From the NCBI GenBank assembly GCA_020444325.1, contig JAHLLD010000013.1:62001-126000 (forward strand): a stretch of 64,000 nucleotides of DNA. Reading direction: 5' to 3'. Both the position numbers and the translations under genes were made by a program. The first letter of the stretch is position 1. The number at the start of each line of letters is the position of its first letter. Source of the stretch: a bacterium. Its GTDB lineage: Bacteria > Bacteroidota > Ignavibacteria > SZUA-365. Positions 6,329-46,184 of the stretch are shown piece by piece. Under the pieces are notes generated by a model. It ran no database searches, was not told where the DNA came from, and saw nothing but the letters and a program-made list of their open reading frames with translations.

Positions 6329-7252
6329 TTAATATGCGGCGAGCTCGCGCACGGATTTGATATCTCCATCGAGCGTGAGCGTGTGCTCCTCAACCACGAG
6401 ATCCTGTCGTCCACTCATGGCGAGCGCCTGCTCAACGATCATGGACAACCCACGACAGCAGGGCACTTCCATGATAACCACGATGACCCGCGGAATGCTG
6501 CTCTCCTGGAAAATGGCGGCCAGCTTGTCTGCGTAGAGGGCCGTGTTGTCGAGTTTGGGACAGGCAACGACGACACTGCGATTGCGCAGGTAGCGCTGAT
6601 GCACTTCGGCGGACGCGATGGGACCGCAGGTGCTCATGACCAGCATTTCCTTATTGCGGAAGAACGAGGCACCGGGCTGCACAAGATGCAGCTGCACGGG
6701 CCACTGTCCGAGCTCGCTCGGAATGAGCGTCGGCGATGCCGTGGGATTCGTCGTGGGACCTGCCGTGCGCCTGAGCTCACGTGCAGCGGATCCCGGACAT
6801 CCTGCACTCACCGCCCCGGGGTGTCCGGTACTTGCAACCTGCCCCGCGTTCTCCGCCGAATGCTGCATCACGGGAATATGCACCTCCCGGTGCAGCTCGC
6901 GCTGGGCACTTCCCGGACAGCCACCTCCATGTCCGCCCTGCTCTTGCGCAGCATGGATTCCTTCATGTCTAGCCTGCGCCATTTCGTAACGGCGCACGGC
7001 TTCCATGCCCTGCGTTTCGAGAAGATGACGCCGGGTGGCTGCGTCATCGAATTCAGGGGCTTCGCGTTTTATGACTTTCAGCGCACCGGTATGGCAGACG
7101 CCGATGCAGTCGCCGAAACCGTCGCAGAACTCTTCACGCACCAGGCGGGCCTTGCCGTCAATAATCTGTATCGCACCTTCCGAGCAGCCGACCACACAAT
7201 CGCCGCAACCGTCGCACAGTGCTTCGTTGATTTCTATGATGTCTCTTGTCAT
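6329..7252 (-). CDS. Ferredoxin-like 4Fe-4S protein with GCPGS motifs
   Basis: Starting at the ATG complementary to 7250-7252, preceded by AGGAGTGTATC, this is a 307-residue protein. Residues about 1-65 form a two-cluster ferredoxin. The first set is complete (CDGCGDCVVGC). The second reads CDGFGDCIGVC, with Phe where the second cysteine would be. The middle is low-complexity and carries GGCPGSA and SAGCPGSA. The C-terminal ~120 residues hold further cysteines (STCGP, VVACPKLD, EVPCCRG) and may bind another cofactor. It follows a Crp/Fnr regulator gene and has an Fnr-type box upstream, an arrangement like that of HcpR-associated ferredoxin genes in anaerobes and facultative bacteria. The precise electron partner is unknown. 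Confidence 0.8.
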   Translation of the reverse strand: MTRDIIEINEALCDGCGDCVVGCSEGAIQIIDGKARLVREEFCDGFGDCIGVCHTGALKVIKREAPEFDDAATRRHLLETQGMEAVRRYEMAQARHEGIHAAQEQGGHGGGCPGSAQRELHREVHIPVMQHSAENAGQVASTGHPGAVSAGCPGSAARELRRTAGPTTNPTASPTLIPSELGQWPVQLHLVQPGASFFRNKEMLVMSTCGPIASAEVHQRYLRNRSVVVACPKLDNTALYADKLAAIFQESSIPRVIVVIMEVPCCRGLSMIVEQALAMSGRQDLVVEEHTLTLDGDIKSVRELAAY

Positions 7253-7278
7253 GATACACTCCTGATCAGCAATGATGT

Positions 7279-7327
7279 CTGCTGCAATATGGCGCGCGCA
7301 GGGCGCTGGAGCCTTGATTAAAGTCAA
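7279..7327 (-). promoter_or_regulatory. Predicted Fnr-dependent promoter of the Fe-S gene
   Basis: TTGATTAAAGTCAA at 7314-7327 matches the Fnr/Dnr consensus TTGAT-N4-ATCAA with one mismatch and is centred at 7320.5. A CATATT element on the minus strand (7286-7291) can act as the -10. The implied start site near 7279 puts the box at about -41.5, the class II activator position. The leader would be about 27 nt and contains the AGGAG ribosome site. Start site and activation are inferred from spacing only. Confidence 0.5.
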
Positions 7328-7339
7328 CTCAGGTCAGAA

Positions 7340-7358
7340 TTATGCAGAAACTGCATAA
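7340..7358. promoter_or_regulatory. 19-bp palindrome, copy 1 (TTATGCAG-AAA-CTGCATAA)
   Basis: A perfect 8-3-8 inverted repeat centred at 7349, about 70 bp upstream of the predicted start site of the Fe-S gene. It is the first of three copies spaced exactly 33 bp centre to centre. It differs from a Crp/Fnr box in both sequence and spacing, so it probably binds a different protein. Confidence 0.7.
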
Positions 7359-7372
7359 AATTCCGGCCACGA

Positions 7373-7391
7373 ATATGCAGAAACTGCATAA
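7373..7391. promoter_or_regulatory. 19-bp palindrome, copy 2 (ATATGCAG-AAA-CTGCATAA)
   Basis: An 8-3-8 inverted repeat with one terminal mismatch, centred at 7382 and 33 bp from each neighbour. The 14-bp segments between copies are not conserved, so the array is a set of phased sites and not a simple tandem duplication. Confidence 0.7.
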
Positions 7392-7405: not shown

Positions 7406-7424
7406 ATATGCAGAACCTGCATAT
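7406..7424. promoter_or_regulatory. 19-bp palindrome, copy 3 (ATATGCAG-AAC-CTGCATAT)
   Basis: A perfect 8-3-8 inverted repeat centred at 7415, only 22 bp after the end of the Crp/Fnr regulator gene in the direction of transcription. Together with copies 1 and 2 it occupies most of the spacer between the regulator gene and the Fe-S gene. The same motif recurs inside the gene at 43453-45426. Confidence 0.7.
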
Positions 7425-7445: not shown

Positions 7446-8117
7446 TCAGTCACCGGTGCAGGCGCGGAGGGCGGAGATATCCTTCAGGAAGAACCCGTTC
7501 CGGCGTTCCTCGATCAGATCACCGGATTTGAATTCTTTCAGGGTGCGTGAGAGCGTTTCGGGGATGGTGCCGATCAGGGTGGCCAGTTCTTTTTTGGTGA
7601 AGGGTATGGGACAGAAGGCGATGCCTGCGCTGTCTTCCGCGTGACGCAGAAGATAACGGGCCAGTCGCGCCTTGACATCGCGCAGGGCGAGGTCTTCCAT
7701 CGCGGTGACAAAACCGCGCAGTCGCCGTGAGTATGCATGAAGGATGCGAATCGACAGCGTGGGCTGGTCAAGCAGCAGCGCGATGAAGCGCCGACTGTCC
7801 ACACGCAGCAGCGTACACTCCGTCATGGCCACACAGGAGGCGGGATACGTCTTGACATCGAACATCGCGGCTTCAGCGATGAGATCCCCCTCCTGCTGTA
7901 TGTGCACGATAAACTCGTCCCCCGCCGGAGTAATGCGATACACCTTGCACTGCCCTTCGAGCACAGCATAGAACGCGAGGGCGTCGTCACCTTCCCGGTA
8001 CAGCACATCACCTTTCTCCAGGCTGCGCAGTGTCACGCATTCCCTGGCAAGCGCACGCTCACCCTTATCGAGAGCGGCGAAGAGAAATATCCTGTCAAAT
8101 GCTTCGTCTACATGCAT
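7446..8117 (-). CDS. Crp/Fnr family transcriptional regulator
   Basis: A 223-residue protein from the ATG at 8117 (MHVDEAFDRIFLF). Residues about 5-120 form the cyclic-nucleotide-binding-like beta-roll, with GDVLYREGD and YAVLEGQCKVYR. A long dimer helix follows, then a winged helix with recognition segment IPETLSRTLKEF. E187, S190 and R191 match the E..SR pattern that reads TTGAT half-sites in Fnr-type proteins. The N-terminal cysteine cluster of oxygen-sensing FNR is absent, so Dnr/HcpR-like sensing (NO or redox) is more likely. The box at 7314-7327 ahead of the next gene is a natural target. A 24-codon upstream extension overlaps a hairpin and is judged untranslated. Confidence 0.88.
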   Translation of the reverse strand: MHVDEAFDRIFLFAALDKGERALARECVTLRSLEKGDVLYREGDDALAFYAVLEGQCKVYRITPAGDEFIVHIQQEGDLIAEAAMFDVKTYPASCVAMTECTLLRVDSRRFIALLLDQPTLSIRILHAYSRRLRGFVTAMEDLALRDVKARLARYLLRHAEDSAGIAFCPIPFTKKELATLIGTIPETLSRTLKEFKSGDLIEERRNGFFLKDISALRACTGD

Positions 8118-8152
8118 GCGAAGAACATACTGCAGTGCAATACAAACGGCAA

Positions 8153-8177
8153 GGGCGACTCCAAAAAGGAGCCGCCC
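8153..8177 (-). terminator. Hairpin between groES and the Crp/Fnr gene
   Basis: GGGCG-a-CTCC and GGAG-c-CGCCC pair around an AAAAA loop, a strong stem with one mismatch. It lies 62-86 bp beyond the GroES gene stop on the minus strand and 36 bp before the Crp/Fnr start. It probably ends the sigma-GroES transcript or attenuates the regulator; the following bases are only moderately T-rich. Confidence 0.5.
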
Positions 8178-8238
8178 CTGGCATTTCATGACTGGTCCCC
8201 TGGATGGCGGGGCCGGTCAGTAAAATATCGTGAGCGTG

Positions 8239-43452: not shown

Positions 43453-45426
43453 TCAGGGAATGATGATCAACGGGAAACTCCCGCGCACACCCGCTTCGGG
43501 ACATGCGAGCATATAGCTCCCGGCAGGAAGTGCGTCCAGCCTCAGTTGCAGCACGTTCTCACCGCGCTGCAGCGAATACGTCTCTGAGAGCCTGGTGCGT
43601 CCCAACGCATCGCGCAGCTGCAGTGTGACTTCCTTCGCCTCGAGGCTCTCCGCGGTGAGCGACACGATGCCCTTCGCCGGCTGAGGCCATGGAGCGGAGA
43701 GAAACACACCGCTCAGAACGACGACATTGTTGTAGCAGGAATCGCGTACGACAATCATGCCATCCCCTGTTCGGATTTCCACTGCGGCATTGATCCTGGC
43801 ATCGTCCAGCAGTCTCACGGGGATGCGGTATCCCGCATCGGGAAACACGCGAAGCGGCAGCTGTACAGGGAAATATGCAGAATCTGCATATCCCTGCAGC
43901 TCAAGCTGCAGCTGTTCCGCATTATGCACTTTCTGCATATTTGCGCGCGCAACGCGCCATCCCGGCGGCAATCGCAGCGCCGTGGCATCAAATGGGGGCA
44001 CAAATACGGCCTGATCAGCCGAAATTTCGGCCGTCAGGGTGATGCGCTGCAGCTTTTCCGGCACATCAAGCGGCAAAACATGCAAATGGAGCCAGCCCTC
44101 TCCACCGCGGTCGATGCGCACGGTATCGAGCTGCATGACACCCGATGCGGAATATGCACTTTCTGCATATCGCAGGCAGCCGTTCGCGGAACGGGAAATC
44201 GTGCCCGCCAGCCGAGGCTGCTCACCCGCAGCATAATGAAGCTGAAAGCGGGCAAGGAGATAATATCCGTCCTGCAATCCGCTCGCCGGGGGCTGCACCG
44301 ACACTTCGAGCGCTCCCCCTGTCTGCGAGAAACCGGTCACCCATTGCAGGGCTTCCAGCTGCATGGCACGCATGCCGCTGAGTGGAATGCTGAGGGTGAA
44401 ATCCCCGGGCTGCAATCCTTCACGCAACTCAACACCCATTGCCACCGTTGTCACCGTATCGTCATCCCATGGCTCCGCGGGCGAGAACCAGACGTTGAGC
44501 GGCAGAAGATCTCCTTCGCGGTATGGCAGCGTAACCTCCTGACGCTGCCAGAGCGTGTCACCGCTGGCAAGGATATAGCCAATCTCGAATTGCCGGGTTT
44601 TGCCGTTCGCGCAGCTGCGTCCCGTCGCAGACAGCGTGCACCAGAGGCGCATGGTATCAGGCCGCAGGATGTCGTTGTATATGGAATCGACAGCACCGGG
44701 CACGTCATGTTCAAGCATGAAACCACCCGTCGCCCTGGTCAGTGTCTCCATGGCCTGCACGCCTTCTTCCCTGTTACGCAGCAGGAGCACGTATATGGGG
44801 ACGTTGTCAACCGCTGCGCGTCCGCGCACCTGTTCCAGCGTCCTGCCGTACCAGCTGGTGTTGTTGTATCCGTCCGTCACGAACACCACCGCGCGCCGGC
44901 TTCCGCTGCCCTGCCCCACGGCGTCTTCGATGGCATTGTGCATGCATTCATACAATGCCGTACCGTTGAAGGGCCACTGTGCGACGCTGAGTCCGTCAAC
45001 CGCCCGCTGCAGGGACGCGCTGTCACGCGTCATATCACGTTCATGATCGATGCCGGTGGCGAACGCCCAGAGGGAAGCTTCTGCTTCCTGATCGGTAAAG
45101 CGCATACGCGCGAGAAAGGATTTCGCAATCTGAATGGCAGGCGGAAAATTCGCATCGAGGCTGCGTTCGATGCCCAGGGCGATGGAGGGGGTTTCCACGG
45201 GTACGGGGGGACAGTCCAGGCGCACCGGCAGCAGACTCCCGTCCTCACGCAGCACGATACGCGCTTCCTCCGGTGGATACACCGCTCGTCCACCCGCAGT
45301 GACGCGCAGGGAAAGCGTGATGGCAGGATACGCGGAAACATCGAGGCCACGTATTTCCAGGCTGTTCTGAGCCGCGGCGCCTGCCACGACCACACAGAGC
45401 AACAGTACTGTCAGAGAAGCGCGCAT
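43453..45426 (-). CDS. VWA-like secreted protein with degraded MIDAS
   Basis: A 657-residue protein from MRASLTVLLLCVVVAGAAAQ at 45426. Its N-terminal ~270 residues align by eye with the giant VWA protein at 11542-16827 (EIRGLDVSAYPAITLSLRV against EVRILRVDTTNFPSVKVYAR). The MIDAS DxSxS is replaced by E87-R-S89-L-D91, so metal binding is doubtful. VVFVTDGYNNTSW is kept. The C-terminal ~75 residues (VTLQLRDALGRTRLSETYSL ... LPAGSYMLACPEAG) resemble a T9SS sorting domain but end FPLIIIP instead of a basic tail. Three 19-bp palindromes lie inside the coding region. Confidence 0.77.
   Translation of the reverse strand: MRASLTVLLLCVVVAGAAAQNSLEIRGLDVSAYPAITLSLRVTAGGRAVYPPEEARIVLREDGSLLPVRLDCPPVPVETPSIALGIERSLDANFPPAIQIAKSFLARMRFTDQEAEASLWAFATGIDHERDMTRDSASLQRAVDGLSVAQWPFNGTALYECMHNAIEDAVGQGSGSRRAVVFVTDGYNNTSWYGRTLEQVRGRAAVDNVPIYVLLLRNREEGVQAMETLTRATGGFMLEHDVPGAVDSIYNDILRPDTMRLWCTLSATGRSCANGKTRQFEIGYILASGDTLWQRQEVTLPYREGDLLPLNVWFSPAEPWDDDTVTTVAMGVELREGLQPGDFTLSIPLSGMRAMQLEALQWVTGFSQTGGALEVSVQPPASGLQDGYYLLARFQLHYAAGEQPRLAGTISRSANGCLRYAESAYSASGVMQLDTVRIDRGGEGWLHLHVLPLDVPEKLQRITLTAEISADQAVFVPPFDATALRLPPGWRVARANMQKVHNAEQLQLELQGYADSAYFPVQLPLRVFPDAGYRIPVRLLDDARINAAVEIRTGDGMIVVRDSCYNNVVVLSGVFLSAPWPQPAKGIVSLTAESLEAKEVTLQLRDALGRTRLSETYSLQRGENVLQLRLDALPAGSYMLACPEAGVRGSFPLIIIP
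43873..43891. repeat. 19-bp palindrome, copy 4 (ATATGCAG-AAT-CTGCATAT), inside a gene
   Basis: A perfect 8-3-8 inverted repeat, the same family as copies at 7340-7424. On the coding strand it encodes YADSAY within the VWA-like protein. Confidence 0.75.
43922..43940. repeat. 19-bp palindrome, copy 5 (TTATGCAC-TTT-CTGCATAT), inside a gene
   Basis: An 8-3-8 inverted repeat with two mismatches, centred 49 bp from copy 4. It is read in a different frame from copies 4 and 6 and encodes NMQKVHNA. Confidence 0.65.
44152..44170. repeat. 19-bp palindrome, copy 6 (ATATGCAC-TTT-CTGCATAT), inside a gene
   Basis: An 8-3-8 inverted repeat with one mismatch, 230 bp from copy 5. It encodes YAESAY, nearly the same peptide as copy 4. 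Confidence 0.7.
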
Positions 45427-45467
45427 GCCGGAAACTACAAAGATGGAGGAAGGAAAGCCATGCCGGG

Positions 45468-46184
45468 TCAGTGTGTCCCTGTCTGCCGCAGCCACTGTTC
45501 AAAATCCGCGATGCGCTCGGGCGTACCGAGATCACTCCAGTACGCTGCGCTTTCGAAGCCCTGGAGCTCCGCGCCCGCAGCCATCGCCTGACGGTAAATA
45601 TCGAAGATGTCGGCGAAACCGCGGGGGAAATCCGTACGGAACAGCGCGGGACTGATCACATGCACACCGCAGAAACCGCGCTGCATTGCGTCGGCGGGTG
45701 GGAGCTGCGTTTCGTCAAACCAGCTCTGCTTGCCGAGAAAGCGCCAGTCGCGGTCGAAAAGTACGGGACGGCTGGTGGGACGTTCATTGACGAGAAGGGT
45801 GGCCAGCGCACCGCGCTCCTCATGCCGCGCGAGCATGGGACGAAGGTCCTGCGCGGTGAACGTATCCGCGTTACACACAAGGAAGCTGCCATCGCCCGCG
45901 AGATGCTCTGCGGCGTTGAGTATGCCTCCTCCCGTCCCCAGTATGTCGCGCTCATGGACAAGTGTCAGCCGCATGCCGAAATCCTGCTGCTCGAGCCACG
46001 AGGCAATCTGCTTTGCGCGATGATGGAGATTGACGATCACCTCGCTGCACCCGCTGCGATGCAGTGTTTCGAGAGCCAGGGAAATCATCGGCCTGCCACC
46101 GGCATGCACAAGCGGTTTCGGAAGCTCGGGGATATGCCCGGCGAGCCGCGTTCCGAATCCGGCGGCAAGCACCATGCCTTTCAT
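45468..46184 (-). CDS. murU: MurU-like sugar-1-phosphate nucleotidyltransferase
   Basis: A 238-residue GT-A-fold transferase: MKGMVLAAGFGTRLAGHIPELPKPLVHAGGRPMI is the NTP-binding signature, with VCNADTF as the metal-binding Asp region and a C-terminal YWSDLGTPERIADFEQWL. The family includes MurNAc-1-P uridylyltransferase (MurU) and mannose-1-P guanylyltransferases. The AmgK-like kinase two genes upstream makes the MurU role (UDP-MurNAc salvage in peptidoglycan recycling) the best fit. It overlaps the RapZ(C) gene by 4 bp. Confidence 0.82.
   Translation of the reverse strand: MKGMVLAAGFGTRLAGHIPELPKPLVHAGGRPMISLALETLHRSGCSEVIVNLHHRAKQIASWLEQQDFGMRLTLVHERDILGTGGGILNAAEHLAGDGSFLVCNADTFTAQDLRPMLARHEERGALATLLVNERPTSRPVLFDRDWRFLGKQSWFDETQLPPADAMQRGFCGVHVISPALFRTDFPRGFADIFDIYRQAMAAGAELQGFESAAYWSDLGTPERIADFEQWLRQTGTH

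Follow-up and report, generated by a model that had tools for sequence, protein, structure and literature searches.

This locus raises the question of why one palindrome should recur six times within 64,000 nucleotides of bacterial DNA, in intergenic sequence as well as inside a gene. That whole stretch, which we call the window, spans positions 62001-126000 of contig C13 in a 4.65-Mb assembly of 25 contigs (G000). Three intergenic copies (site 1, TTATGCAGAAACTGCATAA, 7340-7358; site 2, ATATGCAGAAACTGCATAA, 7373-7391; site 3, ATATGCAGAACCTGCATAT, 7406-7424) follow one another at a spacing of exactly 33 bp between a Crp/Fnr-type regulator gene that adjoins the triple (7446-8189, minus strand; Pfam cNMP_binding and HTH_Crp_2) and a 4Fe-4S protein gene whose true start lies to the left of the triple (6329-7327, minus strand). 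The remaining three lie in a minus-strand gene for a secreted-type protein (43453-45495), where they are read as YADSAY (site 4, ATATGCAGAATCTGCATAT, 43873-43891), NMQKVHN (site 5, TTATGCACTTTCTGCATAT, 43922-43940) and YAESAY (site 6, ATATGCACTTTCTGCATAT, 44152-44170). The VWA domain of this protein scores just above the Pfam cut-off (24.4 bits against 23.8) and its C-terminal type IX secretion match is weak and below the cut-off (22.2 bits against 27); orthologues are present in the related genomes G003 and G002 at 47-50% identity. We judged this VWA-like gene to be a bystander, outside the palindrome system, and the Crp/Fnr-type and 4Fe-4S genes were considered bystanders as well. The initial annotation had given the positions of the six copies and the peptides of the three genic ones correctly. 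It was also right that the window holds no other copy, since we found no seventh at up to three mismatches, and right that six exceed chance, a shuffled window being expected to hold 0.07. The symmetry that it described, two eight-base arms around three central bases, is perfect only in the copies at 7406 and 43873; in the other four, variation falls on the innermost arm base or on the outermost base, positions which are variable in the genome-wide alignment too.

The whole genome contains 315 copies of the core TATGCA-N5-TGCATA and a single copy of the reversed pattern used as a control, so that the proposed excess over chance extends far beyond the window. The consensus, mismatch, half-site, offset and genic counts that follow were made on a sample of 855,756 of the 4,646,367 bases (contig C1 in full, 80 kb from C2 and the window). 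Sites aligned from this sample gave the consensus AAWTATGCA-SWWWS-TGCATAWTT, in which the core takes up 17 bp and the preference extends over about 23 bp. Conservation at the TATGCA positions is 97-100%. At the inner S, G accounts for 78% and C for 16% of cases, almost every base of the central three is A or T, and the A/T preference of the flanks is stronger at intergenic sites. A variant half, TATGCG, is tolerated and recurs both here and in the related genome G004. We counted 66 exact copies and eight with one mismatch, background being reached from two mismatches on: the ratio of observed to expected by base composition was 2326 at no mismatch, 7.3 at one and 1.28 at two, a 320-fold drop in enrichment from the first step to the second. 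The half-site word TATGCAG is not enriched outside the sites (110 occurrences, 131.7 expected), and where one half is perfect the other matches at 6/6 positions in 110 cases, at 5/6 in seven and at 4/6 in nine, the last being the level of the control offsets. Since half-sites are not enriched alone and the second half is either perfect or near background, the palindrome itself is the unit and is present on an all-or-none basis. No report of the motif was found in the open-access literature that we searched, where the matches listed for the letter string concerned animal cells or a human virus. The site family is thus real and striking, chromosome-wide and, as described below, restricted to one lineage.

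The initial annotation had suggested a dispersed palindromic element that inserts in genes, and a mobile or templated element of the REP/BIME, MITE or RPE-like kind would indeed account for the high copy number, the near identity of the copies and their restriction to one lineage. We searched for orthologues at 22 of the sample's 45 genic sites and obtained a usable alignment for 17; of the 40 alignment rows one was dropped for a flank identity under 0.4, and repeats from overlapping loci were merged to leave 31 site-genome comparisons at 16 sites, three of them with one mismatch, against orthologues from three congeners. The alignment was free of gaps near the site in 28 of the 31, while the relatives' sequence differed from the core at 2 to 10 of its 12 positions. 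Sites 4-6 of the window are likewise gapless against the G002 and G003 orthologues of the VWA-like gene. Because the alignments with the orthologues (in G002-G004) are gapless, the genic copies were made by substitution and not by insertion, and on these alignments insertion is excluded for the genic copies tested. At C1:69904 the relative has the identical peptide, YAKLAY, coded TACGCGAAACTGGCCTA, so that the palindrome was made by synonymous changes only. The flanks of the copies are unrelated, as are most of the spacers between neighbouring copies. One array (L412), a real duplicate whose spacers are alike at 10 of 12 positions, may have arisen by tandem duplication, and the genome does hold a separate REP-like family, yet taken together these observations make the insertion of a mobile element scarcely credible as the source of the motif. 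That other family is a GC-rich palindrome, CGTCCCCACGC-NNN-GCGTGGGGACG, found mostly as pairs about 87 bp apart, which looks like an ordinary REP/BIME-type repeat; it occurs on C1 at 127588, 127675, 130770, 130902, 138440, 138527, 165264, 165351 and 206724, and also in L353, L380, L403 and L413.

The sites have left their mark on the proteins in which they fall. In alanine racemase and in a glycosyltransferase most of the seven residues at the site have changed, and core positions overall differ from the orthologues at 5.66 of 12, against 3.81 of 12 for neighbouring codons (32 comparisons taken with no identity cut, p=1e-4); these comparisons share genomes and genes and are not independent, which makes such p values optimistic, and the excess may be inflated if sites sit best at variable protein positions. 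Judged from these alignments, the DNA word would seem to have prevailed over the protein word where sites fall in genes. Two of the reading frames account for 26 and 17 of the 45 genic sites, and the third, which would encode two cysteines, for only two. Repeats at the protein level are excluded as the sole cause of the copies by the use of two main frames, by the intergenic copies and by the synonymous-only site. Genic triple arrays at L048:3444-4889 (minus strand) and L057:11655-13010 (plus strand) force an 11-residue repeat upon the protein, which in an AMP-binding enzyme reads YAERAYSKAED-YAETAYSRAGD-DAETAY. The ATG of the palindrome seems to be the start codon at L032:2773-4428 (minus strand; MQKLH..., a secreted protein), L058:10034-10906 (plus strand; MQFLH..., a lipoprotein) and L407:3708 (MQNVH..., an RsmG-like protein).

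Genes make up 86% of the sample and contain 45 of its 74 sites (p=1e-7), the 29 intergenic ones being 3.7-fold denser, which means that sites avoid genes yet are common inside them; these figures are approximate, as the gene calls came from a purpose-written hexamer script. The intergenic density, the palindromic dimer site and the occurrence of several sites at or just before start codons are all compatible with a regulatory role, in which the sites would be operators of an ordinary global regulator of transcription whose regulon is very large. However, 45 of the 74 sites are genic, and there is no preference for divergent promoters or convergent ends: divergent intergenic regions, 30% of the intergenic length, hold five of the 29 sites, and convergent regions, 14% of that length, also hold five. 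The neighbouring genes (32 at 18 clusters or arrays of this genome, and ten beside G004 sites) are unrelated and lack a common theme, housekeeping and surface genes both being represented (UvrB, RF-1, a tRNA synthetase, a NifU-like protein, an aldo/keto reductase, a serpin and others). Regulons, moreover, show graded sites, while those described here are all-or-none, and we consider this explanation improbable. Along the chromosome there is one cluster per about 15 kb. On C1 the distances from one cluster to the next follow an exponential distribution (p=0.48), as in Poisson-like spacing, and site density is even across the eight large contigs compared (p=0.58), each of which carries the GAAAC class. 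The orientation of the AAA centre shows an apparent relation to the replication or coding strand: AAA lies on the coding strand in 31 of the 45 genic sites, and in intergenic sites it is divided 15 against 14 with respect to the G-rich strand. Ten successive GAAAC-type sites in C2:182815-438091 have it on one strand; elsewhere the strands are mixed.

The 33-bp spacing seen in the window is a general property of the motif. At an offset of 33 bp to either side of the known sites, 32 of 148 places match at least 10 of the 12 core positions, against none of 148 at each of the offsets 31, 32, 34 and 35 in the 74-site sample; a single 32-bp pair (C2:213224/213256) lies outside that sample. When runs of three sites were searched for, 22 arrays came to light: 21 triples and an array of four (C9:175959). 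Arrays are nevertheless not obligatory, since 44 of the 56 clusters in the sample are single sites, with six doubles and six triples. We asked whether the arrays arose by tandem duplication of a 33-bp unit and rejected the idea: adjacent spacers are only slightly more alike than those of other arrays (4.5 against 3.7 of 12 positions, p=0.011), L412 being the sole duplicate. As adjacent spacers are not copies, apart from that one array, the 33-bp spacing must be kept by function rather than by duplication. A distance of 11 bp separates the half-sites and one of 33 bp the dyads. The midpoints of the spacers, 16.5 bp from both dyads, have a GC content of 79% in 41 array spacers, compared with 50-65% at equivalent positions flanking neighbourless sites (142 flanks). 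A and T at the dyad and at 9 to 10 bp on either side of it, with G and C at 4 and 16.5 bp, would be as expected for DNA bent by a protein. Partial sites are not enriched at 33 bp to either side in the sample, though cooperative binding should permit weak neighbours.

We put at roughly one in two the probability that the copies are recognised by a sequence-specific DNA-binding protein which acts over the whole chromosome of this species. The protein is most likely lineage-specific, cooperative and DNA-wrapping, with one dimer site per copy. The two half-sites, separated by 11 bp, would probably be bound by a symmetric dimer, and with dyads spaced at 33 bp successive dimers would then sit on one face of the helix, an arrangement that would lead to cooperative binding; the phased A/T and G/C positions, from the dyad to the spacer midpoint, would probably favour the bending of DNA around the complex. 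Because the sites ignore gene orientation, promoters and gene function, an architectural or chromosome-marking role in nucleoid organisation, segregation or division timing may be proposed in preference to gene regulation, and selection on the DNA may have overridden protein sequence at the genic sites. Function is the weakest step in this proposal, architecture being deduced from the indifference of the sites to genes. The strong maintenance of 315 sites, each of which would add little to architecture, is puzzling and favours drive, to which we return below.

The Lrp/AsnC (FFRP) family is the most attractive source of such a protein by its geometry, with which the 33-bp phasing and the phased base composition agree in that respect only. 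Its sites are palindromic dimer sites with an AT centre, lying two or three helical turns apart from centre to centre, and in Ss-LrpB three dimers wrap about 100 bp, according to the available portion of the published account (PMC2995911). Unlike the motif, however, Lrp sites form imperfect clusters, which lie at target promoters. The single Lrp of this genome is the orthologue of those in the ten other genomes aligned, and its upstream region holds an AT-rich inverted repeat instead of the motif; being family-wide and having an upstream region with no motif, it does not confirm the Lrp family as the binder. The Crp/Fnr-type protein encoded beside the triple of the window (7446-8189) was rejected because its recognition helix reads ETLSR, which we take to be FNR-type and to go with TTGAT half-sites, and does not fit TATGCA. 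A BlaI-type repressor beside an array on C5 has a different inverted repeat upstream (TTACTA/TAGTA). DnaA was set aside because canonical DnaA boxes are present separately; they form a cluster near 627.7 kb of C1, about 21 kb from parS.

The likeness in kind to parS and matS, which the initial annotation had drawn in proposing binding sites for a regulator or a chromosome-organising protein, fits the data: parS and matS are palindromic chromosome-organising sites, and those described here are palindromic, exact, chromosome-wide, both genic and intergenic, and arranged in a 33-bp geometry that is probably cooperative. They are neither parS nor matS itself. The 16-bp parS consensus, TGTTTCACGTGAAACA, is present in few copies near the origin and differs from that of the 315 copies, and this genome has its own two canonical parS at C1:648616 and C1:648661, just after yidC, which also speaks against ParB as the binder; a letter-pattern search of the fetched stretches revealed no clear ParB. 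Three single palindromic sites of the TATGCA family occur within 470 bp after the parS pair. Whereas matS is confined to the terminus domain, the sites here are on all large contigs and not in one domain. Many scattered palindromic sites are likewise found for Noc (NBS) and SlmA (SBS), which are dimeric binders with a chromosome-wide, non-transcriptional role in the available part of a published account (PMC4726725), the corresponding binder here being putative. Those systems differ in having about 70 and 24-52 sites, against 315 here, in their consensus and perhaps in their depletion near the terminus, none of the eight contigs compared here being depleted; no 33-bp arrays are reported for them in that part of the text (PMC4726725). 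A nucleoid-occlusion system of this type has a binder of the ParB or TetR family, which delays division.

The motif is narrowly distributed. When 197 genomes of the class were searched with the less strict core ATGCA, more than three copies were found only in this genome (285) and, weakly, in the congener G004 (7); none of 60 relatives scanned with the full core has more than three, and in 395 genomes of the phylum eight others have one copy each. Two exact words in G001 are in coding sequence and look like chance. In a further collection of other genomes, which may omit this one and those near it, the two-copy array pattern was found in no stretch and the single word in 68 stretches, one copy in each. 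A phage origin was also dismissed: 117 viral stretches hold the word, with one palindrome in each of the 80 listed. G004 has 19 occurrences of the looser word ATGCA-N5-TGCAT and one of the reversed control; the half-sites of the former are flanked by TG in 14 of 38 cases and by AT in nine. Two pairs are 33 bp apart and three are 51 bp apart. The latter (L114 19608-19704, L115 1291-1356 and L118 6839-6904) have an extra ATGCA half-site between the palindromes, a layout with 51-bp spacing that is conserved in three intergenic regions and constitutes a variant geometry. This rarer, more degenerate version of the TGATGCA type suggests that G004 has a related system, and the sites that the two genomes have in PabB fall within one and the same variable linker. 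Orthologue identities place this genome closer, in most segments, to G002 and G003, which have no motif, than to G004; the system is therefore patchy, having been gained twice or lost in between.

The main rival to a chromosome-wide binding protein is a putative DNA-transfer signal spread by molecular drive, which could resemble the DUS/USS known from Neisseria and Haemophilus or could serve in packaging or mobilisation. Site-bearing DNA would be transferred more often, and recombination would impose the site wherever sequence bears it, which explains strong maintenance with no function at each site and also neighbours with no functional bias. As set out in the available text of one study (PMC1939737), uptake sequences originate gradually by point mutation in existing sequence, lie within reading frames in 65% of copies in H. 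influenzae with an excess in non-coding DNA, and show a 92-fold drop from no mismatch to one; the in-place origin, the tolerance within genes that make up 86% of the sample, the intergenic excess and the 320-fold drop observed here follow the same population pattern. The single, non-palindromic enriched word of uptake sequences (PMC1939737, same text) was not found, the unit here being a palindrome whose half-site is not enriched. Nor does uptake have a role for exact arrays at 33 bp whose base composition is phased. At about 15 kb from cluster to cluster, the sites are also sparse for uptake signals, which run at about one per kb. We therefore regard transfer drive as unlikely, though deserving of serious attention.

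It appears very unlikely that the sites are the target of a methyltransferase or restriction system or arise as its by-product, which is what has been proposed for the highly iterated palindromes (HIP) of cyanobacteria. The 6-N5-6 core with its 12 fixed bases and the 33-bp phasing are far longer than methyltransferase targets, and copy number here is in the hundreds. HIPs do offer a precedent, in that they are species-specific, abundant and replaceable by other HIPs along with new methyltransferases, and HIP1 resembles the motif in being a lineage-specific, massively over-represented palindrome with no assigned function and quick replacement between relatives (PMC4390886, in the part available). 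HIP1, however, is 8 bp long with many one-off variants, while the motif is bipartite, all-or-none, phased and 17-23 bp long. In scale and kind the motif may be said to recall Noc and SlmA sites, HIP1 and uptake sequences, and it belongs in full to none of them.

To our knowledge, few systems with dispersed, chromosome-wide recognition sites have been described, and the present sites combine an unusually sharp sequence with an unusually regular geometry and restriction to one lineage. Returning to the chromosome-wide binding protein, with transfer drive as its alternative, we tentatively offer a fuller account that we find plausible: a recently gained, lineage-specific chromosome-marking system, based on a DNA-wrapping protein that counts 33-bp steps (up to four dimers) or on drive, would, after the split from the nearest sampled congeners, have made in place more than 300 exact 17-bp sites, rewriting peptides of conserved enzymes, and a sister species would carry a related low-copy system with a shifted word. 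An array of three sites with 33-bp spacing would make a simple affinity bait for the protein. Since the system is restricted to one lineage, comparisons between sister species allow its origin to be followed, and it would provide a testbed for deciding whether selection for an architectural role or transfer drive is what fills genomes with words of this kind. In either case it would be an instance of selection or drive at the level of DNA visibly overwriting protein sequence.
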